Assembly (NCBI GenBank): GCA_964017235.1 | Contig: OZ024938.1 | Location: 57,217,816 to 57,281,815 of the forward strand | Source of the DNA: Sabellastarte sp. h YS-2021 | Taxonomy: Eukaryota > Annelida > Polychaeta > Sabellida > Sabellidae | Length of the DNA: 64,000 bases | Reading direction: 5' to 3' | Part shown: piece by piece, positions 5,618 through 63,930 of the stretch | Layout of the letters: each line of letters starts with the position of its first letter | How positions within the stretch are numbered: position 1 is the first letter of the stretch | Program-made: the position numbers and the translations under genes | Notes under the pieces: generated by a model | Told to the model about the DNA's origin: nothing | The model's input: the letters and a program-made list of their open reading frames with translations, nothing else | Databases searched by the model: none

Positions 5618-5651
<34 letters not shown>

Positions 5652-5697
5652 GACGGACCTGAATCCAATATATCCCCGACTTTCGTCTGGGGATATA
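2903..5697. repeat. Copy 1 of a 2.6-2.8 kb tandemly duplicated repeat
   Basis: The segment is repeated almost base for base at 5698-11022. From about 4000 to 5300 it contains degenerate monomers of about 350 bp (ACTAAGATTACACATAGAAT recurs near 4139, 4489 and 4840). It ends with a GGC microsatellite (about 5620-5650) and an imperfect hairpin, TATCCCC...GGGGATA. Copy 1 keeps about 190 bp near 3215-3400 that copy 2 lacks, and has a longer GGC tract. There is no coding capacity. A terminal hairpin after tandem monomers resembles Helentron-related (HINE) elements, but this is inference. Confidence 0.8.
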
Positions 5698-6746
5698 ATT
5701 ATTTATATTATTATTTTATTATATTATTTTTAGAATTTGCAAATTGTTTTCAGTTATTCATTTCCTCTATACCTATATATGTGGTCCATATATATGCAAC
5801 CTAAATATGTGACACAATCTCAGTTCTGACTCCCCTTTGTGTTATATGTAATGAAGCCCACCACCTCCCACCCCCACCCCTCTCCCTTCTCCACACCTCT
5901 CTCACTATTACACAAGATCTGCAACCCCATTGAGTTCTTTGTTTCTCATCTGATATCATTAAATACCTTTGTTTATTTAGTGTCACTCAATATAGCTGGA
6001 GGTCCCAGAGGGACAGGGCTAGTTGAGGGTTAAAAATCTCCTAGTTTTACTACATAAGGATATAATTTCATTAATATTGGGACTTAAAGCTCACTTAATC
6101 TGTCCATTTTGTCTACTTGAATATGTTTAACCAGTTTCATTTTAAAAAGTTAAAAACTCAGCAAGCAGAGGTATAACACACAAAAATAAGTTCTTAAAAG
6201 ACTAAGATAGCCATAACATTATTAATATTCAAAGTTTAAATAGACAGGCATTTCCTTTCAAAAATTCAAAGATTTCAGCTCTATAACCCACATAGTTTGA
6301 CAGTTACTGGGCTTTAAAGTGGCATAATGTCCATAAATTGGGTTTCTGTGGGCATTTTACAATTGTTAAAGAGACCTTAGCAATTAAACTACAGATCTGA
6401 AACTTTTTGGGGGACATACATAACAAAAAAAATTTTTTGTAATACAGTTTAAGACTTGTCACACTAAGCATTTCCAAATAACAGGGCAAAATACGGAAAA
6501 AATGTCAAAAAAGGCACTTGGGCGAGTGTCTATGGCCCTCATACACAGGTTAAATGTCTACTAAAAACCTTGATTTTCGGCATATGTAAAAAGGACATAA
6601 TAATGCATTCCCAGATGGGATTTCAGCTCCATCAATGACATAGTTTAACAGTCACAGGGCTTAAAGGTGGTAAAAAGTCCAAATATTGGGTCTCTGTGGG
6701 CCTTTTAGAGATCTCAATGTGCCTTTCAAATGAAAGCTTCAGACTT

Positions 6747-9457: not shown

Positions 9458-11022
9458 TTCAGACTTAAAATTTGTTACATACTAAGATTACACATAGAAT
9501 ATGTATCTAATAAAGTTTGAAACTTCTCAGACTTACCATTTCCAAGTTACAGAGCAAAATATGTGAAAAATGTCTTAAAAGGGTCACTCGGGTGGGTGTT
9601 TAAGGTCCTCATACACAGGTTAAATGTCTACTTGAAGCCTTGATTTTTGGCACATGTAAAAAGAACATAATAATGTATTCCCAGATGAGATTTCAGCTCC
9701 ATCAGTCACATAGTTTAACAGTCACAGGCCTTAAAATTGGCAAAAAGTCCAAATACTGGGTCTTTATGGGGCCTTCTAGAGACCTAAATGTGGCCTTCAA
9801 ATTAAAGCTTCAGACTTAAAATTTGTCACATACTAAGATTACACATAGAATATGCATCTAATACAGTTTGAAACTTCTTAGACTTACCATTTCCAAGTTA
9901 CAGGGCAAAATATGTGAAAAATGTCTAAAAATGGTCACTCGGGTGGGGATTTATGGTCCTCATACACAGGTTAAATGTCTTCTTAAAGCCTTAATTTTTG
10001 GCACATATAAAAATAACATACTAATATCTTCCCAGATAGGATTTGAGCTCTATCAGTCACATAGTTTGACAGTCACAGGGGTTAAAAGTAGCAAAAAGTC
10101 CAAATATTGGGTCTTTGGGAGCCTTTTAGAGACCTCAATTTGACCTTCAAAATTAAAGCTTCAGACTTAAAATCTGTTACATACTAAGATTACACACAGA
10201 ATATATATCTAATACAGTTTGAAACTTCTCAGACTTACCATTTCCAAGTTACAGTGAAACAGATGTGAAAAATGTCTTATAAGGGTCACTCGGGTGGGTG
10301 TTTATGGTCCTGATACACAGGTTAACTGTCTATTAAAGGCCTAAATGTTGGGGCACATATAAGAAAACACATAGATATATTCCCAGATGATATTTAACTT
10401 AGATGAGAGACATAGTTTGAAAGCTACAGTGCTTGAAAGTGGCAAAAAGTGCATAAATTGGGTCTCTGTGGGCACTTTTGAGACCTTAAGTCGACCCCTT
10501 TGGGTAAACCTACAGCCCTAAAATTTTCTACAGACAAGGATTACATATCAAAGTTATACCTAGCGCAGTTTGAGACTCATCAGAATTACCACTTCCAAAT
10601 TATAGGGCAAAATATGTGAAAAGTATAGCAAAAAATCCCTAAGTGGGGGTATTTATGGGCCTCAAACACAATTTTCTCCTCAACTTAAAGTCGTGATTTT
10701 CGGCACATGTACTAAGAACATATTAATGTGTTGTCAGGTAAAATTTCAGCCAGCTGAGCATCATAGTTTGTGACCTACAGGGCTCTAAGTGGCCAAAAGT
10801 CCAATTTCTGACCTTAAGGTGGCCATAAGTTCTTTTTTACTGGGAGTTTAAGGTCACCTTAAAATAGGGATCTTCCTTTGGGCACCCTTAACATGTGTAT
10901 CAAGTTTGAAAAAAAAATATTAATTTGTTTTTGAGTTATCGCGTCCACAAGGAAATTTCTACGGCGGCGGCGGCGCGACGAACCTGAATCCAATATATCC
11001 CCGACTTTCGTCTGGGGATATA

Positions 11023-12570: not shown

Positions 12571-12732
12571 TACTTACATAATCCCAACAGAAGCTTACGT
12601 GACCTACCGTTCGGTCAAGGACACAGACAATGTGTCTCGCCATTTTTTTTACTGAAAGTACACACGTAAACCCCAGCGGGCACCTGCTGGAGGTTATATC
12701 TCCACTGTAAGTTGTCATTCTTATTTTGACCG
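12571..12732 (+). repeat. Left inverted terminal repeat of the DIRS element
   Basis: Reverse complement of 24561-24721 with few mismatches over about 160 bp. It begins TACTTACATAATCCCAACAG, and the stretch to the left (from 12553) also appears in the internal complementary region. It lies about 50 bp upstream of the gag start codon, so it probably contains the promoter. Confidence 0.92.
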
Positions 12733-12780
12733 CCATCAAGTACACACGCGTTCTTTTCGGATCTTCAAAGATTTTTTACC

Positions 12781-14325
12781 ATGTCCGAAAAACAAAGGAA
12801 ATGCTCCATTTGTGCAGGTGATATGTTGCCTTGGGACAACCATCAGGCCTGTTTAAAATGCAGAAACGACAAGAAAGGGAAGGATAAGTGTGTGATTGGT
12901 AAGGAAAGTGACTGTACTATTTGTGCTGGTGCTTTGAAAATTCCTCATAGAAAGAAATCTTCAAAAACTAAAGTTTCTGACAAGTTTGATGACTCGCTGT
13001 TGGATGAGCCAACTCCTTCAAAGTCCTCAACTTCCTCCACTTCTACTCCTGATTCATCTCTTCAGGAGATGTTAAAGGCTATGAATTCTCAGTTATCTTC
13101 CCTGGCTTCTCAATTTGAGGAGTTTAAGCGCAGGGATAAACCTTCAGCTTCCAAAACAACTCTTCCACACTCTCAGGAGCAGGGTATGTGTGCCCCTGCC
13201 TCCCAGAGCAGACCAGTCCCCTCAGAGGGGGAATTATCTGATGAGGAATCATCTTTACCTGCTACAAAACGCCATAGATCCAGGTCTCCTCAGGGTGATT
13301 CAGACACTCATTCCCAGGAATTAGATCCTTCCTATGTGGAAATGCTCAATGCCATCAGGAATCTGTTGGATTTAGAGGTACCACAAGTAGAGTGCCTTGT
13401 GGCTCCCTCTGCATTCTCTAAGAAACCTTCTAAGCAGGTGGTCAGAAAACAGAATTTGGCGTTACCTCCTGTTCAAGATATACAGTCCATGTGGGACTAT
13501 AGATACAGAAAGGCCTCTGGAACAACAGTAAAAGACAAGTCTAGCTCTGAATCTCTATCTCAGGGACAGTTTTTGGCCTTTGAGAGGCCTGACATGATTT
13601 ATTACACCACTTCTCCTCAAAATACTCCTCTGAAAGCTCCTAAACTTCCTGACTCATACTTCAACATAGCTAAAGTAAAGTCTTTGTCATCTTCAATCTC
13701 TGTACCTTCCAAGCAGTTTATTGTACAGGAGACAGTTTGCAGAGAAAATGTTCAAATCCTGGGCCATGTTGTATGGTTTAAAATGGCTATTGAGGAACTC
13801 AACAATAGGATCCAGGAGTTAGCTACTGAGATCAAATGTTCAGAAGATCTGGAAACCATCAGGGAATCAGCAGATCTCATGATCAAATACTCTCAACTCC
13901 AGGCTTCTGTCACATCTTCCTTAGAAATAGCTCTGGATACAGTCCCCAATCAGAATATGACTCTGGCATGCAATATGCTCCTTGCAAGGAGAGACAGCCT
14001 ATTGAAGGACTGCAGCTCAAAATTAGGTCCTAAGGACTTGGCGAGCTTGCGTACAGATCATTTTGACCAACAGGAGGTCTTCAACTCGGATATTTTATCC
14101 CAGGTTGAGGATAACATGATCAAAAGATTGTCAATAATGAAGGAATCTGATTCCAAGTCATACAGAGACTCTGTGAAGAATTTCGATTTCGGGAGATCTT
14201 CACATCCAAAGCCCTCACAGGAAGGTAACAGGTCGTTTCGTGACAAACGAACGCAGCAAAATTCAACCTATGGCCACTTCTCTGCGCGCGCATCGCGAGG
14301 AGGCAGAGGTGGAAAGAGGAAGTGA
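12781..14325 (+). CDS. DIRS gag-like protein (514 residues)
   Basis: The first frame of the DIRS element. The N terminus has a zinc-knuckle-like arrangement, C-x2-C (residues 8-11) followed by H-x2-C-x2-C, and then a second C-x2-C. A Ser/Thr/Pro- and Lys-rich low-complexity region covers about residues 55-175. A more conserved central part follows, and the C terminus ends RGGRGGKRK, a basic nucleic-acid-binding tail. This matches the position and style of DIRS gag proteins, which are thought to package the RNA. The start follows the ITR at once and no upstream in-frame Met is credible. A pol-like reading (SGARLRTFWQVW) starts in the next frame at about 14330, so gag and pol overlap or nearly touch. 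Confidence 0.85.
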   Translation: MSEKQRKCSICAGDMLPWDNHQACLKCRNDKKGKDKCVIGKESDCTICAGALKIPHRKKSSKTKVSDKFDDSLLDEPTPSKSSTSSTSTPDSSLQEMLKAMNSQLSSLASQFEEFKRRDKPSASKTTLPHSQEQGMCAPASQSRPVPSEGELSDEESSLPATKRHRSRSPQGDSDTHSQELDPSYVEMLNAIRNLLDLEVPQVECLVAPSAFSKKPSKQVVRKQNLALPPVQDIQSMWDYRYRKASGTTVKDKSSSESLSQGQFLAFERPDMIYYTTSPQNTPLKAPKLPDSYFNIAKVKSLSSSISVPSKQFIVQETVCRENVQILGHVVWFKMAIEELNNRIQELATEIKCSEDLETIRESADLMIKYSQLQASVTSSLEIALDTVPNQNMTLACNMLLARRDSLLKDCSSKLGPKDLASLRTDHFDQQEVFNSDILSQVEDNMIKRLSIMKESDSKSYRDSVKNFDFGRSSHPKPSQEGNRSFRDKRTQQNSTYGHFSARASRGGRGGKRK

Positions 14326-14649
14326 CTTCTCAGGGGCAAGATTGCGGACTTTTTGGCAGGTATGGTCAAACAAGAGGAGAGTGCCCGTGAACGGGCACTG
14401 TGTCAGCTGACTGAATGTTTTTGATTTGTGATGGTGATAATGAGAGGAAAGCATAATTATCAGGCAAAGGGCTGTACAGAAATACAGTAAATGGTAACTG
14501 AACACATGTTCGAAAGATATTCCGAAGCTGACAGAAGAAAACGACAAAAAAGTTGTGCCCTGCAAATGGTATTATGAAATAAAGTAACAAGGTAATTGTT
14601 TAAGGGTAAAAAGTAGGTTAAAAATATTTAAAGAAATACTATAAATGCA

Positions 14650-15608
14650 ATATCCTCGTTCCACCATGAAGAAGGGGTCCAAAGGTCAAATCTGACCATA
14701 CCAAAAGATTCCCAGCCAAAGAATTTAGGATGGTTTACCATCCCAAACCTCTCGGACCAATAATAAGTGAGTTATAGGCACTTTTTAAGTTTGGCTATCC
14801 TTGTTTGACCTTGAAGGAGGGGGTCCAAGGTCAAATCCGACCACACAAAAAAATTCCCAGCCCATGATTTCCTGTAGCTTGTTTACCATCCCAAACTTGT
14901 AGGACCAATAATAAGCGAGTTCTAAGCAATTGTAAGTTTGACTATCCTCAACTGCCCTTGAAGGAGGGGTCCCAGGTCAAATCTGACCACACCAAAAGAA
15001 TCCCAGCCCATGATTTCCTATATGTTGGTTTACCATCCCAAACCTCCAAGACCAATAATACGCGAGTTATAAGCACTTTAAGTTTGGCTATCTTCGTTTG
15101 ACCTGGAAGGAGGGGGTCCAAGGTCAAATCCGACCACACAAAAAAATTCCCAGCCCATGATTTCCTGTAGCTTGTTTACCATCCCAAACTTGTAGGACCA
15201 ATAATAAGCGAGTTTTAAGCAATTGTAAGTTTGGCTATCCTCAACTGCCCTTGAAGGAGGGGTCCCAGGTCAAATCCGACCACACCAAAAGATTCCCAGC
15301 CCATGATTTTCTATAGCTTGGTTTTCCATTCGAAACCTCTAGGACCAATAATAAGTGAGTTATAAGCACTTTTAAGTTTGGCTATCCTCATTTGACCTTG
15401 AAGGAGGGGTCCAAGGTGAAATCCGACCACACCAAAAAATTCCCAGCTCATGATTTTCTATAGGTTGGTTTTCATTCCAACCTCTGGGACCAATAATAAG
15501 CGAGTTATAAGCACTTTTATGTTTGGCTATCCTCATTTGACCTTGAAGGAGGGTTCCAAGGTCAAATCGGACCATATTAACAGATTCCCAGCCCATGATT
15601 TCCTACAG
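14650..15608. repeat. Tandem array A, about 146-bp monomers, 7 copies
   Basis: The motif TTGAAGGAGGGGTCCAAGGT (or close variants) recurs at about 14667, 14811, 14957, 15102, 15249, 15398 and 15542, giving a period of 144-149 bp. Other shared parts are GATTCCCAGCCCATGATTT and GACCAATAATAAG. The first four units alternate between two variants, so a dimer of about 291 bp is visible. The array stops inside a monomer at about 15608, where array B starts. Confidence 0.9.
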
Positions 15609-18600
15609 GTTGGATACAATGATTTACTCAACAGTGAGAACCTGAAAGAAGCTATTGCTCAGCTATCCCATGACATAGAGGTCTGCAATTTCACTATGTT
15701 ATAGCTGACCAAAACGTCTGTGAATAACATATTTAACAAAATACTCTAAATGTAATAATTTTCAAGTTACAACTGATTTACTCAAGAGTGAGAACCTCAA
15801 AGTAACTATTACTCAGCTATGCAATGAGCTACATGTCTGAATTTTTGCTCTGTTATAGCTGACCTAAAAGTAGCTGAACAACATATTTAAGCAAAATACT
15901 GTAAATGCAATAGTTTTCAAGTTACAACTGATTTACTCAATAGTGAGAACCAGAAAATAGCTATTGCTCCGTTATGCCATGAGCTATAGGTCTGTAATTT
16001 CACTATGTTATAGCTAACCCAAAAGTAGGTGAACAATATATTTTAACAAAATACTCCAAATGCAATATTTTTCAAGTTATAGCTGATTTACTCAACAGTC
16101 AGTGCCTGAGAACAGCTATTGCTCAGTTGTGCCATGAGCTACAGGTCTGTAATTTCACTATGTTATAGCTGACCCAAAAGTAGCTGAATAACATATTTGC
16201 ACAAATTTCTGTAAAAGCAATAGTTTTCCAATTACAACTGATTTACTCAACAGTGAGAACTTCAAAGTAGCTATTACTCAGCTATGCAATGAGCCACAGG
16301 TCTGGAACTTCACTATGTTATAGCTGACCCCAAAATAGGTGAATAAAATATTGAAACAAAATACTCTAAATGCAATAGTTTTCAAGTTATAAGTGATTTA
16401 CTCAACAGTGATAACCTAAAAGTAGCTATTACTCAGCTATGCCATGAGCTACAGGTCTGAAATTTTACTATGTTATAGCTGACCCAAAAGTAGCTGAATA
16501 ACATATTTATACTAAATTCTCTAAATGCAATAGTTTTCAAATTACAAGTGATTTACTCAACATTGAGAACTTCAAAGTAGCTATTACTCAGCTATGCAAT
16601 GAGTCACGGGTCTGGAACTTCACTATGTTATAGCTGACCCCAAAATAGGTGAATAACATATTGAAACAAAATACTGTAAATGCAATAATTTCCAAGTTAT
16701 AAGCGATTTACTCAACAGTGATAACCTAAAAGTAGCTATTACTCAGCTATGCCATGAGCTCAGGTCTGAAATCTTACTATGTTATAGCTGACCCAAAAGT
16801 AGGTGAACAACATATTTAAGCAAAATACTGTAAATGCAATAGTTTTCAAGTTACAACTGATTTACTCAATAGTGATGACCTAAAAGTAGCTATTACTCAG
16901 CTATGCCATGAGCTACAGGTCTGAAATTTTACTATGTTATAGTTGACCCAAAAGTAGCTGAATAACATATTTATACTAAATTCTCTAAATGCAATAGTTT
17001 TCCAATTACAACTGATTTACTCAATAGTGAGAACCTCAAAGTAGTTATTACTCAGCTATGCAATGAGCTACAGGTCTGAAATTTCACTATGTTATAGCTG
17101 ACCCAAAAGTAGGTGAACAACATATTAAAGCAAAATACTGTAAATGCAATAGTTTTCAAGTTACAACTGATTTACTCAATAGTGATGACCTAAAAGTAGC
17201 TATTACTCAGCTATGCCATGAGCTACAGGTCTGAAATTTTACTATGTTATAGCTGACCCAAAAGTAGGTGAACAACATATTTAAGCAAAATACTGTAAAT
17301 GCAATAGTTTTCAAGTTACAACTGATTTACTCAATAGTGATGACCTAAAAGTAGCTATTACTCAGCTATGCCATGAGCTACAGGTCTGTAATTTCACTAT
17401 GTTATAGCTGACCCAAAAGTAGCTGAATAACATATTTATACGAAATTCTCTAAATGCAATAGTTTTCCAATTACAACTGATTTACTCAATAGTGAGAACT
17501 TCAAAGTAGCTATTACTCAGCTATGCAATGAGCCACAGATCTGAAACTTCACTATGTTATAGCTGATCCCAAAATAGGTGAATAACATATTGAAACAAAA
17601 TACTCTAAATGCAATAGTTTCCAAGTTATAAGCGATTTACTCAACAGTGATAACCTAAAAGTAGCTATTACTCAGCTTTGCAATGAGTCACGGGTCTGGA
17701 ACTTCACTATGTTATAGCTGACCCCAAAATAGGTGAATAACATATTGAAACAAAATACTCTAAATGCAATAATTTCCAAGTTATAAGCGATTTACTCAAC
17801 AGTGATAACCTAAAAGTAGCTATTACTCAGCTATGCCATGAGCTACAGGTCTGAAATTTTACTATGTTATAGCTGACCCAAAAGTAGGTGAACAACATAT
17901 TTAAGCAAAATACTGTAAATGCAATAGTTTTCAAGTTACAACTGATTTACTCAATAGTGATGACCTAAAAGTAGCTATTACTCAGCTATGCCATGAGCTA
18001 CAGGTCTGAAATTTTACTATGTTATAGCTGACCCAAAAGTAGGTGAACAACATATTTAAGCAAAATACTGTAAATGCAATAGTTTTCAAGTTACAACTGA
18101 TTTACTCAATAGTGATAACCTAAAAGTAGCTATTACTCAGCTATGCCATGAGCTACAGGTCTGAAATTTTACTATGTTATAGCTGACCCAAAAGTAGGTG
18201 AACAACATATTTAAGCAAAATACTGTAAATGCAATAGTTTTCAAGTTACAACTGATTTACTCAATAGTGATGACCTAAAAGTAGCTATTACTCAGCTATG
18301 CCATGAGCTACAGGTCTGAAATTTTACTATGTTATAGTTGACCCAAAAGTAGCTGAATAACATATTTATACTAAATTCTCTAAATGCAATAGTTTTCCAA
18401 TTACAACTGATTTACTCAACAGTGATAACCTAAAAGTAGCTATTACTCAGCTATGCCATGAGCTACAGGTCTGAAATTTTACTATGTTATAGCTGACCCA
18501 AAAGTAGGTGAACAACATATTTAAGCAAAATACTGTAAATGCAATAGTTTTCAAGTTACAACTGATTTACTCAATAGTGATGACCTAAAAGTAGCTATTA

Positions 18601-20600
18601 CTCAGCTATGCCATGAGCTACAGGTCTGAAATTTTACTATGTTATAGTTGACCCAAAAGTAGCTGAATAACATATTTATACTAAATTCTCTAAATGCAAT
18701 AATTTTCCAATTACAACTGATTTACTCAATAGTGAGAACCTCAAAGTAGTTATTACTCAGCTATGCAATGAGCTACAGGTCTGAAATTTCACTATGTTAT
18801 AGCTGACCCAAAAGTAGGTGAACAACATATTAAAGCAAAATACTGTAAATGCAATAGTTTTCAAGTTACAACTGATTTACTCAATAGTGATGACCTAAAA
18901 GTAGCTATTACTCAGCTATGCCATGAGCTACAGGTCTGAAATTTTACTATGTTATAGCTGACCCAAAAGTAGGTGAACAACATATTTAAGCAAAATACTG
19001 TAAATGCAATAGTTTTCAAGTTACAACTGATTTACTCAATAGTGATGACCTAAAAGTAGCTATTACTCAGCTATGCCATGAGCTACAGGTCTGAAATTTT
19101 ACTATGTTATAGCTGACCCAAAAGTAGCTGAATAACATATTTATACGAAATTCTCTAAATGCAATAGTTTTCCAATTACAACTGATTTACTCAATAGTGA
19201 GAACTTCAAAGTAGCTATTACTCAGCTATGCAATGAGCCACAGATCTGAAACTTCACTATGTTATAGCTGATCCCAAAATAGGTGAATAACATATTGAAA
19301 CAAAATACTCTAAATGCAATAGTTTCCAAGTTATAAGCGATTTACTCAACAGTGATAACCTAAAAGTAGCTATTACTCAGCTTTGCAATGAGTCACGGGT
19401 CTGGAACTTCACTATGTTATAGCTGACCCCAAAATAGGTGAATAACATATTGAAACAAAATACTCTAAATGCAATAATTTCCAAGTTATAAGCGATTTAC
19501 TCAACAGTGATAACCTAAAAGTAGCTATTACTCAGCTATGCCATGAGCTACAGGTCTGAAATTTTACTATGTTATAGCTGACCCAAAAGTAGGTGAACAA
19601 CATATTTAAGCAAAATACTGTAAATGCAATAGTTTTCAAGTTACAACTGATTTACTCAATAGTGATGACCTAAAAGTAGCTATTACTCAGCTATGCCATG
19701 AGCTACAGGTCTGAAATTTTACTATGTTATAGCTGACCCAAAAGTAGGTGAACAACATATTTAAGCAAAATACTGTAAATGCAATAGTTTTCAAGTTACA
19801 ACTGATTTACTCAATAGTGATGACCTAAAAGTAGCTATTACTCAGCTATGCCATGAGCTACAGGTCTGAAATTTTACTATGTTATAGCTGACCCAAAAGT
19901 AGCTGAATAACATATTTATACGAAATTCTCTAAATGCAATAGTTTTCCAATTACAACTGATTTACTCAATAGTGAGAACTTCAAAGTAGCTATTACTCAG
20001 CTATGCAATGAGCCACAGATCTGAAACTTCACTATGTTATAGCTGATCCCAAAATAGGTGAATAACATATTGAAACAAAATACTCTAAATGCAATAGTTT
20101 CCAAGTTATAAGCGATTTACTCAACAGTGATAACCTAAAAGTAGCTATTACTCAGCTATGCCATGAGCTACAGGTCTGAAATTTTACTATGTTATAGCTG
20201 ACCCAAAAGTAGCTGAATAACATATTTATACGAAATTCTCTAAATGCAATAGTTTTGAAGTTATAAGCAATTTACTCAACAGTGATAACGTAAAAGTAGC
20301 TATTACTCAGCTATGCCATGAGCTACAGGTCTAAAATTTTACTATGTTATAGCTGACCCAAAAGTAGCTGAATAACATATTTATACGAAATTCTCTAAAT
20401 GCAATAGTTTTTAAGTTACAAGTGATTCTACTCATGATGGAAGTTACTGAAAAGCCCAAAAGTAGCTATTACTCACTTAGCTATTGAGACAGGCACCCAA
20501 CTTACTCACCATATTGTAGCTATGAAAAAAGTAGCTGAATAACATATTTTAACAAAATGCTCTAGATGCAACAGTTTTCAAGTTATAAATGATTTTGTGC
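15609..20600. repeat. Tandem array B, about 155-bp monomers, about 31 copies
   Basis: Each monomer carries GATTTACTCAACAGTGA, TAGCTATTACTCAGCTATG, ATGTTATAGCTGACCC and AAATGCAATAGTTTTC. Successive TGTTATAGCT starts at 15697, 15851 and 16006 give the 154-155 bp period. Monomer variants recur in a fixed order: identical variant pairs at 17031/18736 and 17671/19376 are both 1705 bp apart, which is 11 monomers. The last units (after about 20440) are strongly diverged. There is no coding capacity. Confidence 0.93.
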
Positions 20601-21093
20601 ATGATTTCATGAATGTTAATGCATTAAAAATTATTAAAAAAATTTATTAAAAAAAAAGTAAGAGAGATCCAGGTCTCATACTCACACAAGAGAATCTACC
20701 TCTGGCCTAGTACATATATGCAAGATATGAGAGAAATCCCTGCAATAGTCACTGAGAAAATTGTGATAAAAAGTTGAAATTTTCACACTTTTGGTGGGGG
20801 TACCCCCCTTGTAATGTCTCTAGCAAACAGACGAACAGACAGATTTGCATGCCTTGAACAATTTTTCATCCTCGATAGATAAGGTATCTTTTAAAAAAAA
20901 CAGCACGTCTCTAGGCCTTGTAGTTTTGGAGGAGAAGTTGTTCACGTGGACGCGTACGCGTACGCCCACGCCGCAGAGTGACGACATAATGCCAGCTGAC
21001 TGACAAGTCAGCTGACATAAAAACCACGCCCATCCCAGAGTAGTAAGTTTACTGCAACATGGCTATCGCCTAGACTTCAAGTTTCTTCCAAAA

Positions 21094-23016
21094 TTGTCGA
21101 AAATTCCGCTCATTTTGAGCGAATATCACAACAAAAACAAAGATGGCGCCCTCCAAGAGGCAGTTCAGGCCATGCTTACAAAAAAGGCGATAGTTCCTGT
21201 CAAAAAACTCACTACTCTGGGATATTACAGCAGACTTTTTCTGGTTCCAAAACCCATGAATCGTTGGCGACCAGTAATAGATCTAAGTATGTTAAACCTT
21301 CATTTACATGTACCGACATTCAAGATGGAAACAGCCGAATCTATCAGGAAATCGATTCGAAAAGGGGAGTGGGTCATCTCGATAGACCTCACAGACGCTT
21401 ATTTCCATGTTCCAATACATCCACAATCTCAAAAATATCTGAGATTTCAGACCAAAAAAGGGGTTTTTCAGTTTCAAGCTCTTCCTTTTGGTGTCGCGAC
21501 AGCTCCCCTAGAGTTCACTCGCATTGTCAAAGAGGTCAAACTCATAGCTCAAGCCAGGAACCTCAGAATCCATCAATATCTGGACGACTGGCTTCTTCGG
21601 TCACCATCAAAAGATCAATGTCTCAAAGATTCGGAAAAGTTAGTTCAATTGGTCCAAGAACTAGGCTGGCTTATCAATTTTCAAAAATCGGAATTGATAC
21701 CCACGCAAAAACTGGATTTTCTGGGCTATCATTTCGACCTTCAGAGGGGTCTAGTGTTCCCAACCCAGAAGAAACTCGATCGGCTAAACGCTCAGACTGT
21801 TTCCATCAGAAAGTCATTAGTCTTGACTCCAAGAAAGCTCATGTCGCTCATAGGGACTTTAGCTTCCTTGGAAAAAACAGTACCACTAGGAAGGTTACAC
21901 ATGAGACCTTTCCAGTGGTACCTAAAGTCGCACTGGAAGTTTCCCCAGTCGTTGGACATAAGGATTCCAGTAACAGGAAATTTCCTGAAGCACCTAAAGT
22001 GGTGGGAGGATATCAAAAATCTCATGGCAGGTGCTCCTATCCATCCTCAGGTACACAACACACTGGTGTTTACAGATGCCTCACAAAAAGGCTGGGGAGC
22101 TCACTTAAACGAGATAGTGTTAAGTGGTCTCTGGTCAAACAAGGAAGCCCAGCTCCACATCAATGTATTGGAGCTAAAAGCTGTTCTTCTAGCCCTAAAG
22201 GGCTTTCAGGAACACTTACAAGGTCAAACAGTGCTCATTTGTTCAGACAACAGCACAGTAGTATCTTATCTGAACAAAGAAGGAGGCACACATTCCATAG
22301 AGATGTGTGCTCTTATCTGGAGAATTCTTGCATTCACAAATTCCAGAAGAATCCAGATAAGGGCAAGACACGTACCTGGATCCCTAAACGTCATAGCAGA
22401 CTCTCTATCACGAAGGGACAAGGTCATACAGACGGAGTGGTCACTTCACCAACAGATATTCAACCAAATTTGCAAAGTTTGGCACACACCAATGGTAGAT
22501 CTTTTTGCAACTCATCTAAATTACAAACTTCCAATTTATGTATCTCCTGTCCCAGACAGAAAGGCTTGGAAAATAGATGCATTGAATATCTGTTGGGAAG
22601 GCCTAGACGGCTATGTCTTCTGTCCAGTAGCCATCCTGCCACAAGTAATTCAAAAAATAATAACATACCCATGCAGGATGATAGTACTGGCTCCAGGGTG
22701 GCCAGGGATGCCATGGTTTTGGGATCTAGTGGATCTCTCGACCAGGGTACCCCTACAGCTCCCTCACTGGAAGACACTTCTGAAGCAGCCACATTCCAAC
22801 AGGTTCCACAACAACGTGGAGTACCTGAATCTACATGTGTGGCTTCTGGATTCCAGGAATCCAATTCTGGAAGATTCTCATCTGAGGTGGCAGAAAGAAT
22901 TAAGGCACCTCAGAGGGAATCCTCAAGAAAAGTCTATCAATCAAGGTGGACCATTTATGGGCAATGGTGCACAGAGAATAAGGTGGACATCACCTCAACA
23001 GCTGTTCCCCAGGTAG
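21094..23016 (+). CDS. DIRS reverse transcriptase / RNase H / methyltransferase-like protein
   Basis: Copies the element's RNA. In order: RT with SIDLTDAYFHVP (Asp98 and Asp101) and YLDD at residues 162-165; RNase H with TDAS (Asp328), Glu360 in NVLELKA, Asp385 in CSDNS and Asp436 in ADSLSR; then a domain running from VDLFATHLN to VLAPGWPGMPWFW (about residues 468-543), which matches the N6-adenine-methyltransferase-like module known from DIRS elements. The Met at 21094 is not the native start. The frame is open back to 21016 and upstream residues (GYRLDFKFLP) belong to the family, the earlier part being cut off by the array element. The catalytic residues look complete, but the insertion would separate the protein from its native N terminus. 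Confidence 0.92.
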   Translation: MSKIPLILSEYHNKNKDGALQEAVQAMLTKKAIVPVKKLTTLGYYSRLFLVPKPMNRWRPVIDLSMLNLHLHVPTFKMETAESIRKSIRKGEWVISIDLTDAYFHVPIHPQSQKYLRFQTKKGVFQFQALPFGVATAPLEFTRIVKEVKLIAQARNLRIHQYLDDWLLRSPSKDQCLKDSEKLVQLVQELGWLINFQKSELIPTQKLDFLGYHFDLQRGLVFPTQKKLDRLNAQTVSIRKSLVLTPRKLMSLIGTLASLEKTVPLGRLHMRPFQWYLKSHWKFPQSLDIRIPVTGNFLKHLKWWEDIKNLMAGAPIHPQVHNTLVFTDASQKGWGAHLNEIVLSGLWSNKEAQLHINVLELKAVLLALKGFQEHLQGQTVLICSDNSTVVSYLNKEGGTHSIEMCALIWRILAFTNSRRIQIRARHVPGSLNVIADSLSRRDKVIQTEWSLHQQIFNQICKVWHTPMVDLFATHLNYKLPIYVSPVPDRKAWKIDALNICWEGLDGYVFCPVAILPQVIQKIITYPCRMIVLAPGWPGMPWFWDLVDLSTRVPLQLPHWKTLLKQPHSNRFHNNVEYLNLHVWLLDSRNPILEDSHLRWQKELRHLRGNPQEKSINQGGPFMGNGAQRIRWTSPQQLFPR

Positions 23017-23912
23017 CAGAATTTTTAAACTACCTGTTCACAGTCAAAAATCTCAAACCAGCTACAATCACTGGTTACAGAACAGCAATTGCTGATGCTT
23101 TGGGTTCACAGGGTGAATTCATTTCAAAAAGTCTAGAACTGAATAGACTTATTGCCAGCTTCACCAGGGATAGACCTAAACCAAATAGGTCCATACCTAC
23201 ATGGGACCTCTCATTGGTCCTCTTAGGTTTGACAAAACCTCCCTTTGAGCCTTTGTCAGAGGCTCCTTTGAAGTGGCTAACTTACAAGACAGTGTTCCTG
23301 TTAGCTTTAGCCTCAGGAAAAAGAAGGAGTGAGATACATGCATGGACTCACTCTTCTGTCTCTTCAAGGAGAAATTGGTCAGAAGTTACTGTCTCTCCTT
23401 CTCCGGCCTTCCTGGCTAAAAACCAATTGGCTTCGGATGGCCCTGATTCCATTAAGCCAGTAGTGATACCAGCCCTTACTATCATGTTGGACAGCTCACT
23501 GGTGGAGGACAAGTCACTTTGTCCAGTTAGGGCCCTCAAGGTCTATTTAGAGAAGACCAAATCCATGAGAAAGGGCAAGGCCCTGCTCTTTGTATCCCTT
23601 AGGGAGGGTTATTCTAAGGATATCACAAGAATAACCATTTCCCAGTGGATCAAACACACCATTCAAACTTGCTATCAGTCTTCAGATACGGCTGATCAAC
23701 AGGTCACTCAGGTTAGAGCTCATGATGTTAGAGCTATGGCTGCATCACTTGCATTTAAAGGAGGTATCTCCTTAGAGCAGGTCTTGAGCTCCTGTTACTG
23801 GAAATCCCACAATACCTTTACAAACTTTTATTTGAAGGATATTTGCTGGGAAAATGATGATATCTTTAAGTTAGGTCCCATTGTGTCTGCACAGCATGTA
23901 GTGAACAATTGA
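21264..23912 (+). CDS. DIRS tyrosine recombinase (overlapping frame)
   Basis: The recombinase part starts around 22890 and reads to 23912. It shows an Arg-containing box (SGKRRSE, about 23313-23333), HDVR (23721-23732) and a catalytic Tyr in NTFTNFYLKD (codon 23829-23831), in family order. This enzyme integrates the circular DNA. The frame is open far upstream, to 21264, entirely within the RT/RNase H frame in another phase. The upstream part has no domain of its own and is rich in Ser/Arg. Whether it is translated, or translation enters near 22890 by slippage or reinitiation, cannot be told. DIRS elements are known for such overlapping frames. Confidence 0.88.
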   Translation: MATSNRSKYVKPSFTCTDIQDGNSRIYQEIDSKRGVGHLDRPHRRLFPCSNTSTISKISEISDQKRGFSVSSSSFWCRDSSPRVHSHCQRGQTHSSSQEPQNPSISGRLASSVTIKRSMSQRFGKVSSIGPRTRLAYQFSKIGIDTHAKTGFSGLSFRPSEGSSVPNPEETRSAKRSDCFHQKVISLDSKKAHVAHRDFSFLGKNSTTRKVTHETFPVVPKVALEVSPVVGHKDSSNRKFPEAPKVVGGYQKSHGRCSYPSSGTQHTGVYRCLTKRLGSSLKRDSVKWSLVKQGSPAPHQCIGAKSCSSSPKGLSGTLTRSNSAHLFRQQHSSILSEQRRRHTFHRDVCSYLENSCIHKFQKNPDKGKTRTWIPKRHSRLSITKGQGHTDGVVTSPTDIQPNLQSLAHTNGRSFCNSSKLQTSNLCISCPRQKGLENRCIEYLLGRPRRLCLLSSSHPATSNSKNNNIPMQDDSTGSRVARDAMVLGSSGSLDQGTPTAPSLEDTSEAATFQQVPQQRGVPESTCVASGFQESNSGRFSSEVAERIKAPQRESSRKVYQSRWTIYGQWCTENKVDITSTAVPQVAEFLNYLFTVKNLKPATITGYRTAIADALGSQGEFISKSLELNRLIASFTRDRPKPNRSIPTWDLSLVLLGLTKPPFEPLSEAPLKWLTYKTVFLLALASGKRRSEIHAWTHSSVSSRRNWSEVTVSPSPAFLAKNQLASDGPDSIKPVVIPALTIMLDSSLVEDKSLCPVRALKVYLEKTKSMRKGKALLFVSLREGYSKDITRITISQWIKHTIQTCYQSSDTADQQVTQVRAHDVRAMAASLAFKGGISLEQVLSSCYWKSHNTFTNFYLKDICWENDDIFKLGPIVSAQHVVNN

Positions 23913-59500: not shown

Positions 59501-61186
59501 TCATTTTCGATTATTTTTGCAAGACTATCTGATGTAATATTTGTGACCACTTGGAACTATTTTCCTTGATTCAAAATGTTAGTTTGTGGATTTTGCTATT
59601 TTCTCTAATTTTACAGCTACCCACAACAGCGAAATTTTATCAAATGTTGTACTCCTCTTATTATATTGGCTTGCATACAAGACTGAAAGGCAAATTGTAA
59701 CAAATTTTATTGTAATTTAACTATTTGTAAGTTAAATACTTACCTTATCCTCACAAGGACAGACCCACCCTTCCTCCCCTCACAAGTTTGTTTTACAGCC
59801 AACAGGGGACCAAAAATTAAATGAAGATCTCTCGACACAGTCCAACCGACAATGAGTAGTGCGCATGCGCGCCTACCACTAACTACGGGGTTCACCTCTC
59901 GAACAAGAATAAATTTTAAATATTCTTGTTGGTCGCCGTGTTTTGCCTCCACAAAACCAAGTAAGCATTTGTGAGAATAAGGTAAGGCTATTTTACGCAA
60001 TAAAAACATTTGTTATTTGTTCGCACTACCCTAATACTATTTTACAACAAATACTAGATAAAATTTAATTACCTTTAAGTTTAAAATTCATACATCTAGG
60101 ATACCTTTCTTTTATTTTTTAATGAACATGTAAACTTTACTCTCATAACAATTTTTTGATTACAAAATTCCTCTACTTCTAATTTTCCAACTATAATATT
60201 AAATAATTTAAGTTCAGGTACATGTTAAGCTGAGCTTTTACAATATTCATATAGATGTTAAAATGTATGAAAATTTTTCATGCTCTGTGGTGATTTATTT
60301 AAGTTACATAGGAAATGGAAGAAAGTATACAGTTTTTGTATTAGAACCCAGCTAAGCTATGTAAACTTTTAACAAACACCAAATATTTAGATACATGCCA
60401 AATACCATGAGAAGATATTTTAATATTAATTTTGCTATTTGGTTTCAGACTTACTTGTCCTTCATCATGGTAAGGATCTTGTCCCAAAATGACAACTTTC
60501 ACCTGAAACAAAAGTGACGATAGTAATAGTAAAGGACAAACTATAACTCTGGCTATATTCCTGTAAATATTTATCATTTTGAAAGTGAAGTAATGTTGAA
60601 TCTTATGAATATTCAGGCTAAACTTTATCACACCTTTACTTGTTAGAAAACTATCAACCACATTCTTCACATAATCAAGCTAATGGTGAAATCACAAACA
60701 TTGCAAGATTGAAGAATAAGTCCAATGGTCAAACCAGGATGCACAGATTAAATTTTCATACTCTGCACAAACTTGAGAACATCTTAACTCCATCAAATAG
60801 ACAAAATAATTTATGAAAACTGTTTCATAACTAGTACTGCGTACCTCATTAAAAGGTGTCAAAGTAAAAGCATTGAAAATCAAATCCAGTGGTGGATAAA
60901 CTGTAACTTTTTTCTTCTTCAAGCCATCAAGAACATTTTCAATTTTGGTGAAGTATTCCTTTTCAAATTCTTCCCCCAAGACAGCCAACCAGCTGTCATC
61001 CTTGAGGAAAGTTTTGAGCTTCAGATCACACTTCACACCTGCTCCACTGGCACTTTGATCCTTTCTTTCCTTTGGAAGTTTTTCCTTTTTACTGGTGTTT
61101 TTACCTTGAGTTTTTGACATTTTAGTCTTTTTCTGTGGAACTGGTCCTTCCTCAGTGGTACTGTCTGTCTTTTTCTTCTTTGGCAT
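56550..61186 (-). CDS. UNG: Uracil-DNA glycosylase, family 1 (complete, 4 coding exons)
   Basis: Removes uracil from DNA as the first step of base-excision repair. Exons on the minus strand: 61186-60845, 60502-60455, 58115-57943 and 56835-56550. Phases fit and total 849 nt (282 residues; human forms are 304-313). The N terminus (residues 1 to about 50) is Lys-rich and disordered, like a nuclear-localisation region. The catalytic domain shows YPP, the water-activating loop GQDPYH (catalytic Asp, exon 2), [22 protein letters not shown] (uracil-recognising Asn), LWGNFAHQK and HPSPLS (catalytic His with the DNA-intercalation loop). The loop reads DPYHDEGQ where human has DPYHGPNQ. No PIP-box-like N terminus or mitochondrial leader is visible, so alternative first exons may exist. 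Intron 2 holds two mobile-element remnants and intron 3 a hAT-like MITE. Confidence 0.94.
57310..57699. repeat. hAT-like MITE (TAGGGCTG family), copy 2, in UNG intron 3
   Basis: About 390 bp, closely similar along its length to 32816-33204 (GAACGAGTACT near the start, AAAACGTATAATTTACTCCA in the middle, GTCCCAGCCCTA at the end). It is flanked by CATATAAC (57302-57309) and CTTATAAC (57700-57707), an 8-bp duplication with one difference. Confidence 0.88.
58520..59335 (+). mobile_element. Hairpin-ended tandem-array element in UNG intron 2 (HINE/'pearl'-like)
   Basis: Five monomers of about 145 bp, with AAGGTCA...GCACACCTACA at about 58558, 58695, 58840, 58990 and 59136, each containing CCCTACCAAGTATCAACTTC and GAGATATAGCCCGGACAA. 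A unique 3' part follows (GCCCGCCCATCCGGACACCA) and a perfect 18-bp palindrome, ACAGCCCTTAAGGGCTGT (59302-59319), then GGAGTAAAAA. Monomer core, unique 3' segment and terminal hairpin give the same plan as the element at 14371-21021, although the sequences differ. The 5' end is not well defined. Confidence 0.75.
59703..60006. mobile_element. Short DIRS-terminus-like element in UNG intron 2
   Basis: About 300 bp with an inverted pair CTTACCTTATCCTCACAA / TTGTGAGAATAAGGTAAG near its ends. The left part (ATTTTATTGTAATTT, AAATACTTACCTTATCC, CCTTCCTCCCCTC) aligns with the sequence of the large DIRS from its internal complementary region onward (ATTTTATTGTAATTGG, AAATACTTACATAATCC, CCTCCTCCCCTC). 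The right end (TTTTACGCAATAAAAAC) resembles the reverse complement of the DIRS left terminus (TTTTTATGCAATAAAA). It has no coding capacity and appears to be an internally deleted or non-autonomous member of another DIRS family. Confidence 0.6.
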
Positions 61187-61663
61187 GTTGATTACCTAAA
61201 AATAATTATCACATTTCACTTTGTGTTGGTTTGAGCCTTGAGGTCACCTTTCATCCCTGTTTTCATTTTTATTTTAATAGATTTTGAGACACATTTGTCT
61301 AATTTTACATGGCAAATCTCAGTTCTACACGAGGTCATGCTGAGGTCAATATGTAAGGAAAATAGAGTCCTAACCACATCTCTGATTTGATCATATGCAC
61401 CTCATCCTTGGAGCTTTCTAATTTTTCATATTCTGCCGTCCACTAAAAAATGTTTGGTAAATTTTATTTGTACAGGTTTCATAACTGATCTATTACAGTT
61501 ACAGAGATTGTATCCAGATGTCTTGACCGCTGTCTCATAAAATAAGTTCCTGTAAAATTTATTTCTTTTACCTGCTTCTATGCTATACAGAAAAATATAT
61601 TTCAGAAGTGTGTTAAGTGTCAAAGTGTAAAGTCACTTTTGATTGCCTTTAAGTGTGCAATTT

Positions 61664-61734
61664 GCCTGATACTGTATGTGATAACTAGTCACTACTGTAT
61701 TTCGACAGTCTAAGTGATCTGTCTCATCAGAGGC
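61664..61734 (-). ncRNA. Candidate type I hammerhead ribozyme
   Basis: Read on the minus strand: stem I GCCU (61734-61731), core CUGAUGA and G, stem II GACAG/CUGUC with a ten-base loop, core GAAA (61703-61700), then stem III. Stem III pairs A-U, UAC/GUA, an A-A mismatch, GUA/UAC, a bulged A and GUGA/UCAC, closed by the seven-base loop CUAGUUA. It is followed by the cleavage triplet AUC and the other strand of stem I, AGGC (61667-61664). Every conserved core position (C3 to A9, G12 to A14, and the A15.1-U16.1 pair) is present. Self-cleavage would fall between plus positions 61668 and 61667. Stem I is short (4 bp), as in other element-borne hammerheads. Confidence 0.75.
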
Positions 61735-61872
61735 TGGAGAGTGTGTGTAACCCTACCCCCTAAGGTACTTTTTGGAAAGTGCAATTGCACCGCCAGTTTG
61801 CACCAGTGCTGGGTGCACTTTTTGCACCTTTATGTGGTGCAAGGTGTGTAAGTGCTGAAAAGTGTTATTAGG

Positions 61873-62143
61873 TCCCTGAATGTGGGGGAGACAGGGAGAC
61901 CGTTCAGAAAAAGAATTTATGAACACAAACTGTCAGTCTCTAAACCCAAGGAAACCAGAATTACCCTAGTCTCTGAACACTTTACTGAGAAGGGTTATTC
62001 AGTTAGGGACATGCAATTTTCTCTGCTGGAATAGTGTTCCCTCAAGTATAACACTCCCAAATCTGAACATAGAAAGATGAGAGAGAAATGGTGGATGTGG
62101 AATATTGGGGCTATACATCCAATAGGCATTAATCAATTTATTT
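61873..62143 (+). pseudogene. GIY-YIG endonuclease remnant of a Penelope-like element
   Basis: The translation reads NVGETGRPFRKRIYEHKLSV, then VSEHFTEKGYSVRDMQFSLL, an in-frame TAG at 62032-62034, and continues REKWWMWNIGAIHPIGINQF to a TAA. The GETGR...RIYEH pattern, the histidine-containing HF-x2-GH-like segment and the WxW...IHPxGIN end are the C-terminal GIY-YIG nuclease of Penelope-like elements. The first strand with the Tyr pair is missing and the stop breaks the frame, so it is dead. In a living element this domain cuts the target DNA. Confidence 0.83.
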
Positions 62144-62210
62144 AATAAAACGTTCCATTAATGTCCCTTCACACTCTGGACATTACCCTTATTTTCCCTG
62201 CTTCTATGCT

Positions 62211-62740
62211 GTCACTCATGCACAGAAATTGTGATATTAAAAAGCCAAAAACACCAATATTTGACATATATGACCAATCTTTGACATAATATTGAACATA
62301 TTTTTGTAAGTTATTGATATTTGTACACTATAATTATTAAATAATTATATATCAACCATAAAATATAACAATAATTTCTATCTGTGGTTTAGTGTCAATT
62401 TTGAGGAACTTATGATGTGTTCCATGGAAATTCACGAGATGTTAACACAGGCTCATGGCCCGTAAATTTGCAAAGAATGATGTCACGGGCAATTTTTACC
62501 AATTACCAGATCATTTGCACAAAAACACGTTCACCCAAGAAATTTTAAGATCGCACAAAAACACGTTCGCACAATATTAATTTTAGTCTGGTACCCAATT
62601 ACAGTTAAGGTACATTTTGTAGATGAAGTCCAGCAGTTATGTAGAAAATTTTATTGTCCACAATTTGTTCACAAATGACAAAATAACAATCAAAATTTGA
62701 GCACTAATGTGTTGTCTATGTGTACCGAAGCACTGATGTT
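62211..62740. other. AT-rich intergenic stretch, no gene seen
   Basis: No protein-like frame. A motif CACAAAAACACGTTC is present twice (about 62519 and 62556). Otherwise nothing is recognised between the Penelope-type insertion and the MULE pseudogene. Confidence 0.5.
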
Positions 62741-62744
62741 TTAT

Positions 62745-63930
62745 AAGTCCATGGCATCCGCGTGCTGTTGGGTAGACTGTGGCACTGGGCCATAGATCCT
62801 TCCACACCTCCTCAGGAGCTGCTTAGCTGTTATGTCACCATTGGTGAAATCATCCCACTCCCTGTATTTTATCATTAATTTGCCTGTATTCCTTCCTCTC
62901 CACCCGTTGTAGCTACCCATTCTGGATTAATCTCCTCTGTATTGCCACATATTCTTTGTGAAGTAACTCCACAAGGAGATAAAGCTGTAATTGTCCCCGC
63001 CCAGCATTCCGATTCAGTCTGTGGTGCCAGCCCTCATAATCATTGTTGGTCCTGACCTTCTGAAGAAACACAGACCATCAGGCTTCCACATGCTGGAGTT
63101 GATCCATGTGTCCTCTGTGTATTCACAGAGGAGTTGTAGAAGGCTATCACTATCTTCCTCCTTCAAAACATGAAACTGGGATGGGATTATCTCTGAAGGA
63201 AGAAATGGCAATGCAAAGAGACGTCTGCAGTAAGCCCTGGTACCTTCATCAGTGTAAGCTGACTGCAGCCCAATCTCACGCAACTTTCTTTCAACACTCT
63301 GCACCCAATGGAATGCACATCCTTTAAATGATATGCCTGGAAAGGCATACCTGAGCCCTCCCCACATGGCAACCTCAAAATCCAGGACAGCTTCTTCCAG
63401 GTTACAATCACCAATGACACCTTTTACAGAGGAAAAAACAGCCTTGTAGTCATTCTTACTCCTGCCAATATCAGGATAAACAACAGGGGCACTTGGTTTT
63501 TGCTGTCTCCTTGCCTCAGGAAAGCATGAATGGATAGTCCCTGTACAAAGGGAGCCTTGACTAGCTTAAAGGTTCCATCCACATACCATCTTTTGGCTCC
63601 ATGAAGGAGGCCAAGTTGGTGATCAGTGGCGAAAAGGGGATGCCTTCCACCCACCAAAACATTTTCCTGGAAAAATCCTTCTGGGATGTGGTCATGGTCC
63701 AGTGAAAATTCCATGCCTTTGGGATGATTCGGCCTTGTATTTTGCCTGTGGCGGTTGGCAACCCGTTCCAAATTTGTTGGCTTTGGCAGTAAGGCTCTGG
63801 CAGAGTGCTGGGTGAGGGCCTTCTGGACAATAGCTGCTGCTGGTTTAAAGACTTCTTCTCTTCCCCTTTTCCTTCTCTGCGGTTATCTGTACTTTTGTTT
63901 TTCTTGCAGCTGTCTGATGATACAAAACAC
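62745..63930 (-). pseudogene. Decayed MULE-type transposase (FLYWCH/MULE family) gene
   Basis: Read from the right: a Lys-rich N-terminal part and PTNLERVANRHRQ; the MULE transposase core, RWYVDGTFKLVKAPFVQGLS (Asp in DGTFK, the usual first catalytic region), then QVPLLFIL; after a frame change near 63460, NDYKAVFSSVKGVIGDCNLE, VLDFEVAMWGGL (second acidic region) and GCAFHWVQSVERKL; after another frame change near 63065, NNDYEGWHHRLNRNAGRG and LLVELLHKEYVAIQRR; a stop near 62925; and a last in-frame part GDITAKQLLRRCGRIYGPVP. At least three frameshifts and one stop make it a pseudogene. It runs close to the window edge, so upstream sequence may be missing. It could be a dead transposon or a failed domesticated gene. 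Confidence 0.83.

Follow-up and report, generated by a model that had tools for sequence, protein, structure and literature searches.

The question raised by this locus is whether a self-cleaving RNA motif that lies within a short transposon remnant also plays a part in the propagation of the transposon. The motif, a hammerhead, is located on the minus strand at 61734-61664 of the window, as we call the whole stretch of 64,000 nt that was analyzed, and the remnant belongs to a Penelope-like element (PLE). Hammerheads have been known in PLEs since 2014. In the following, positions in the ribozyme-bearing part of the element are given as H numbers, which run in the ribozyme sense.

When the sequence is read directly, the complete hammerhead core, three stems and an AUC site are found on the minus strand from 61734 to 61664 (H140-H210), exactly as an earlier note on this DNA had described. 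The 5' strand of helix I, GCCU (61734-61731), is followed by the core stretch CUGAUGA (61730-61724), by helix II with GACAG and CUGUC enclosing a 10-nt loop (61723-61704), by the core bases GAAA (61703-61700), and finally by helix III and AUC|AGGC, which places the predicted type I cut at 61668|61667, i.e. H206|H207. Helix I comprises four pairs, helix II five and helix III 11, the latter interrupted by an A.A mismatch and a single bulged A. An invariant core, the correct helix order, an open helix I and UH ahead of the cut make this a type I hammerhead. A loose descriptor (CTGANGA, GAA+A and UH, with a minimum of 4, 4 and 3 pairs and G-U permitted) returned this motif as its single match in the window. 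The same descriptor matched 374 times in 5500 Mb of single-stranded first-order Markov sequence, which corresponds to 0.0087 chance matches on both strands of a window and 8.3e-5 in an insert of 612 bp; the earlier assertion that a chance match is unlikely can thus be put in numbers. The covariance search that the note had named as a check turned out differently, since the scores stayed below threshold in the window, in the insert and in ten other loci. No Rfam family reached its gathering score in the whole window, none of the six matches to 61550-62230 at E <= 10 was a hammerhead model, and the same is true for the three matches at E <= 5 in the ten other loci, two of which (L052 and L065) have the motif without its 5' part. 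Another fold reaches the free-energy minimum (-17.8 vs -15.1 kcal/mol for the hammerhead); its stability is ordinary compared with shuffled sequences (z -0.75; 42 of 200 shuffles equally stable), and no tertiary contacts of the window hammerhead were found by eye. The evidence from insertion ends described below is nevertheless judged to outweigh the missing Rfam match, and at the level of its letters the hammerhead motif at 61734-61664 is real.

Further information came from the comparison of related copies in the same genome. Among 34 extracted ribozyme copies, four with a diverged 5' part were excluded (L027, L049, L052 and L065, which are also without the full core), and the remaining 30 were aligned. 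The full core is kept in 21 of these 30, the window copy among them, and is incomplete in the other nine; a family in which every other copy has lost core bases, which the earlier note had considered as evidence against a ribozyme, is hence not what was found. Mean identity among the 30 copies is 0.970 for core plus stems vs 0.893 for the loops (P 0.006), and 0.949 for the core alone, a core base being gone from nine rows. In the structure as drawn, 96.9% of the cells are paired compared with 16.5-37.6% for slid versions, the drawing being based on these same sequences, and the 11 pairs of helix III are formed in 97.0% of the cells across distinct copies. Since no pair with a double change occurs among the aligned copies, which are too alike for compensatory change, this conservation does not amount to proof by covariation.

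The motif is embedded in an insert of 612 bp, which is flanked by 14-bp copies of CCTGCTTCTATGCT at 61571 and 62197, as previously stated, and which has the same ends as the other members of its family. The left copy of the target-site duplication extends over 61571..61584 and the right one over 62197..62210. Between them lies first the B arm on the minus strand (61587..61873, with H1 = 61873 and H287 = 61587), a piece of inverted pLTR that is common to many copies and passes into unique flanks after H287 elsewhere; site B, which forms its outer end in the window, follows 81 bases after the ribozyme cut. It is followed by the head-to-head joint of the two arms (61874..61879), the six bases of which match neither arm in other copies, and by the A arm on the plus strand (61880..62197), which represents the 3' end of the PLE broken off within the endonuclease (EN) domain, has site A as its outer end and shares its last base with the duplication. 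The coding remnant of the GIY-YIG endonuclease end (61879..62142, plus strand) contains an in-frame TAG at 62032-62034 and ends at the stop TAA at 62143-62145. Pfam gave nothing above cut-off for this short fragment, and its identity of 83% to P0001 and 77% to P0003 corroborates the Penelope GIY-YIG remnant proposed in the earlier note. The window insert is a truncated PLE copy, and its H-E junction is private to it among the copies seen. The B arm extends across the ribozyme, so the template of the window copy was uncut at this place; the copy, consisting of a 287-base B arm that contains the ribozyme and an EN-broken A arm, arose from such an uncut template, and L038 resembles it in having a B arm through the ribozyme.

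Some other features of the window surround this insert. The frame at 60692-61195 (minus strand) matches solved uracil-DNA glycosylases, with a best E of 3.7e-6 over residues 61-119, and the ribozyme cut is positioned 482 nt upstream of its first ATG in the same sense; the ribozyme could cut this host uracil-DNA glycosylase-like transcript if the 5' UTR extends that far. At 63017-63565 (minus strand), a MULE transposase domain was matched weakly, with an E of 0.009 that does not reach the cut-off. A satellite array of 32 copies of a 155-bp unit occupies 15615-20595, and the same 155-bp repeat makes up, by eye, the flanks of the solo terminal PLE piece L092. The array is part of a region (12730-23912) with a long frame at 12730-14325, a 147/293-bp array, the 155-bp satellite and a reverse transcriptase (RT) with RNase H that is overlapped by a second long frame; the region resembles a DIRS-type element with arrays inside. 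A LINE-like RT frame (6971-9481, minus strand) in 3813-10622 is bordered on either side by arrays of a 351-bp unit (3813-5279 and 9458-10622).

To place the insert in its family, its own genome of 1.79 Gb, in which the window belongs to contig C19, was searched with the insert as query, and the search for other copies suggested by the earlier note indeed yielded many relatives. At least 62 matches were obtained; copy numbers are lower bounds because only 40 of 1782 first-look candidates were scored. Nearly all of these matches fall into two blocks, H (61587-61873) and E (61880-62197). The mapping of pieces on 21 loci (L001 and L031-L050) revealed the tandem order H-M-N-R-E-U-H, with block sizes of 287 (H), 149 (M), 820 (N), 2123 (R), 318 (E) and 1302 (U) bases, where R comprises the RT and stops where the endonuclease begins. 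Direct tandem units with hammerheads about 2.46-2.47 kb apart are found in L033 and L034 on contig C8. The ribozyme is encoded on the same strand as the RT/GIY-YIG frames in the longest copies; in L046, the M/N frames lead via the RT to the endonuclease, all on the ribozyme strand and broken by a stop and a frame change, the first ATG (frame beginning MSVASES) follows 89 nt after H207, and Pfam RVT_1 and GIY-YIG were both found below their curated cut-offs. Seven of 17 candidates proved to be related proteins, for which a precomputed Pfam list gives RVT_1 in three, GIY-YIG in five and both in P0003. Internally deleted copies also occur, one form joining M1-149 to R1938 and another consisting of a terminal piece, M1-109 and E from about 135 (L053, L054, L055, L058, L059 and L068), the latter being a possible non-autonomous passenger of the PLE. 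An RT with C-terminal GIY-YIG, tandem units, an inverted pLTR and target duplications together characterize the family as a PLE. The scan of IMG/VR with the RT/EN alignment gave 20 pattern stretches and no relative, and none was found in the PDB search with P0001.

The copies meet unique flanks at two places. Site A is the end of the E block (...TTATTTTC), about 52 bases past the EN stop, and site B lies at H287 (...TTTTTCTGT). Among 20 candidate insertions, seven with an unknown end were left out of the repeat test, and 12 of the 13 tested are flanked by direct repeats (13-21 aligned bases, no more than one of them mismatched), L048 being the sole case without them. In 11 of the 12 repeat-flanked insertions the A end is paired with a B end at H284-H287, the remaining one (L049) having its second end near H235. 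From this pairing of A and B ends and the flanking repeats we conclude that the typical insertion consists of two head-to-head cDNA arms. Long insertions are represented by L031 (6.9 kb, including an unmapped stretch) and L032 (4.1 kb), and some loci are not simple A plus B insertions, namely L088 with two terminal arms and L091 and L092 with a terminal piece alone. The head-to-head joining of A and B arms also explains why the ribozyme of the window looks reversed: the guess of an inverted pLTR in the earlier note was right, whereas its view that this is not the expected arrangement was not, since inverted and mostly head-to-head pLTRs with a one-sided tail are described as the usual PLE structure in PMC3846280 and the frames are co-sense with the ribozyme in longer copies. 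By eye, the presumed RT start sites A (62197) and B (61587) are alike (TTATTTTC-CTTGTCTG vs ATTTTTCTGT-TTGTTC) and possibly share a common binding motif. At the joints of L050 and L054, the filler between the arms contains a second short copy of the arm end (ATTTGCC...), as though the RT had switched to the 5' end of a second RNA that was cleaved at this position.

The inner starts of the arms bear directly on the activity of the ribozyme. In L001-L093, 80 arms cover part of H207-H287, of which 42 reach upstream of H147 and 38, from 26 loci, start in H147-H287; the references for arm starts begin at H101. By alignment, 11 of these 38 arms start exactly at H207, the first base past the predicted cut. 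Such alignment-based starts depend on whether the reference has TATC or TATA ahead of AGGC, and the arms were recounted against the upstream letters of their own subfamily, because the base ahead of the cut differs (AUC or AUA). In the recount, 12 of the 38 arms and 11 of the 26 loci start at H207 (L045, L046, L050 twice, L051, L054, L055, L057, L059, L073, L084 and L088). Eight of the 38 rows were shifted, with L068 moving to H205 and L092 to H206 and with L055, L059 and the second arm of L050 being added; both counts comprise 11 loci with H207 starts in lists that are not identical. Further starts were recounted at H206 (four), H205 (one) and H210 (three), and elsewhere no position has more than two. 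Chance alone should make a quarter of the true H207 starts seem longer by one base. Under a uniform null that assumes no enzyme preference and independent loci, 0.27 starts are expected at H207 (P 4e-17). Two of the queries used in the genome search contained the H207 junction and may enrich for such starts; among the loci first listed with the junction-free insert query, five of ten arms and four of seven loci start at H207 (P 4e-9). H207 starts are seen in the AUC as well as in the AUA subfamily, and the A arm begins there in the long copies L046 and L050 and in the internally deleted L045, which differ from each other in flanks and flanking repeats. The pile-up suggests that the predicted cut really happens and sets the start of new copies, and we infer from this genomic rather than biochemical evidence that the ribozyme generates the template 5' end at H207 in vivo.

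The ends, the flanking repeats, the head-to-head joints and the pile-up at H207 are directly visible in the genome, and the explanation that accounts for them best, to which we assign a probability of roughly three in four, is that the hammerhead of an animal PLE cuts the template RNAs at H207 and that the arms are made from sites A and B. The hammerhead sits at the boundary of the tandem units, directly 5' of the first frame of the element, where it would remove everything upstream from a read-through or tandem transcript. The template RNA cut from such transcripts would then begin at H207 (AGGC...), judging from the arm starts 89 nt ahead of the first ATG in L046. The RT/GIY-YIG protein would probably cut the two strands of the target at positions separated by some 13 or more bases, and reverse transcription might begin inside the RNA, at site A on one target end and at site B on the other. 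From a cleaved template, the A arm would be made in full length and the B arm with 81 bases; both would stop at H207 and be joined head to head, which is the form of L046 and L050, while on an uncut template the B arm would continue through the ribozyme, as in the window copy. The majority of the arms (42 of 80) are not cut at H207, which counts against this explanation. Its more specific version, a two-site, two-arm insertion in which some 1.6 kb of the RNA lie between A and B and the hammerhead cut is the common 5' stop of both arms, is tentative and somewhat more doubtful than probable. If it were true, the ribozyme would convert tandem transcripts into unit templates and keep the inverted arm short, and the inverted pLTR, the tail and the hammerhead of PLEs would become parts of one mechanism.

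Other causes of a sharp end at H207 have to be weighed against cleavage by the hammerhead. Transcription of the element might start at H207, or the host might make a 5' end there in another way, with the hammerhead being a relic or having another role. The arm starts tell where the templates ended and not how this end arose, and the broken core in many copies would fit as well. However, the hammerhead independently predicts the same phosphodiester, a transcription start would need to coincide with the cut in several subfamilies, and the ribozyme upstream of it, which would be absent from such transcripts, is nonetheless conserved; we regard a host-made end as unlikely. It is still less probable that the folded hammerhead simply acts as a roadblock that stops the reverse transcriptase, for which cleavage is not needed. 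Three arms do stop at H210, within the 3' strand of helix I, but 12 arms copy this entire strand and stop exactly at the scissile bond, whereas a roadblock would stop the cDNA ahead of the strand, and another 42 arms pass through.

Two further interpretations concern the nature of the motif and have become so improbable that both were rejected. The earlier note had mentioned small metazoan retrozymes, i.e. non-autonomous, circle-forming elements, as known carriers of hammerheads, and the small size, the animal host, the type I hammerhead and the short internally deleted relatives would be in line with a retrozyme. This reading is not borne out, because the window copy carries the endonuclease end of a PLE and the units of L033 and L034 measure about 2.46-2.47 kb by the spacing of their hammerheads, compared with retrozyme RNAs of about 170-400 nt according to PMC7229834. 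A chance resemblance to a hammerhead would be compatible with the lack of an Rfam match and of covariation, but it is at odds with the expectation of 8.3e-5 per insert, the core kept in 21 of 30 copies and the arms that start at the predicted cut. Overall, the first interpretation of the locus is partly supported, and cleavage by a PLE hammerhead remains our preferred reading.

As a motif, this hammerhead is ordinary; its value lies in the evidence of function. The genome itself records the ends of template RNAs, a sharp share of which falls on the predicted cut, so that assemblies alone suffice to test the role of PLE hammerheads in any animal that has PLEs. This is of interest because a review from 2020 called the in vivo activity and role of the PLE hammerhead a mystery (PMC7761336). 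Already known are the hammerhead in PLEs and the inverted pLTR, while the coincidence of the cut with insertion starts and the long conserved helix III appear to be new; no report of this coincidence was found in the literature searched, the coverage of which is without the original 2014/2017 reports on PLE hammerheads.

The closest known system is PAc, a Poseidon-type PLE of Anolis carolinensis, which likewise combines an RT and C-terminal GIY-YIG with tandem units and a hammerhead near the 5' end of the unit (PMC11167929). Reverse transcription of PAc starts inside the RNA on both target strands, by our arithmetic 85-92 nt past its hammerhead cut compared with 81 here, and this precedent of internal starts at a similar distance supports the internal starts proposed for the present family. 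PAc differs in having two adjacent start sites, whereas the ends found here map to two sites that are separated by about 1.6 kb of the tandem unit, and in an ORF start that overlaps the ribozyme, whereas the first ATG of L046 follows 89 nt past the cut. Hammerhead mutants of PAc were still inserted in vitro, showing that cleavage is unnecessary for insertion, and no RNA-seq ends were seen at its hammerhead cut, in contrast to the genomic arms that end there in our family; a long helix III, as present here, is not mentioned for PAc in the sections of PMC11167929 consulted. The Penelope families of Adineta vaga share the inverted pLTR, head-to-head joints, one-sided tail and target duplications; they differ by a tail of about 31 bp and, in the passages of PMC3846280 on them, duplications of 8-10 bp, and a text search gave no occurrence of the word hammerhead in that paper. 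The hammerheads of PLEs and Terminons (PMC6155905, PMC7761336) resemble the present one as type I hammerheads in a PLE repeat, but these sources call them minimal, without helix III and tertiary contacts and with an unknown role in vivo, in contrast to the conserved 11-pair helix III observed here, which points to a PLE hammerhead with a genuine helix III that may work as a monomer. Finally, the 5' ribozymes of R2 and other LINEs belong to other ribozyme classes and other retrotransposons, and their self-cleavage is likewise thought to trim the 5' end of the element RNA off an upstream transcript (PMC7761336). Of the entire fold of the PLE hammerhead described here, the element would retain only the four terminal bases, AGGC, once cleavage has occurred.
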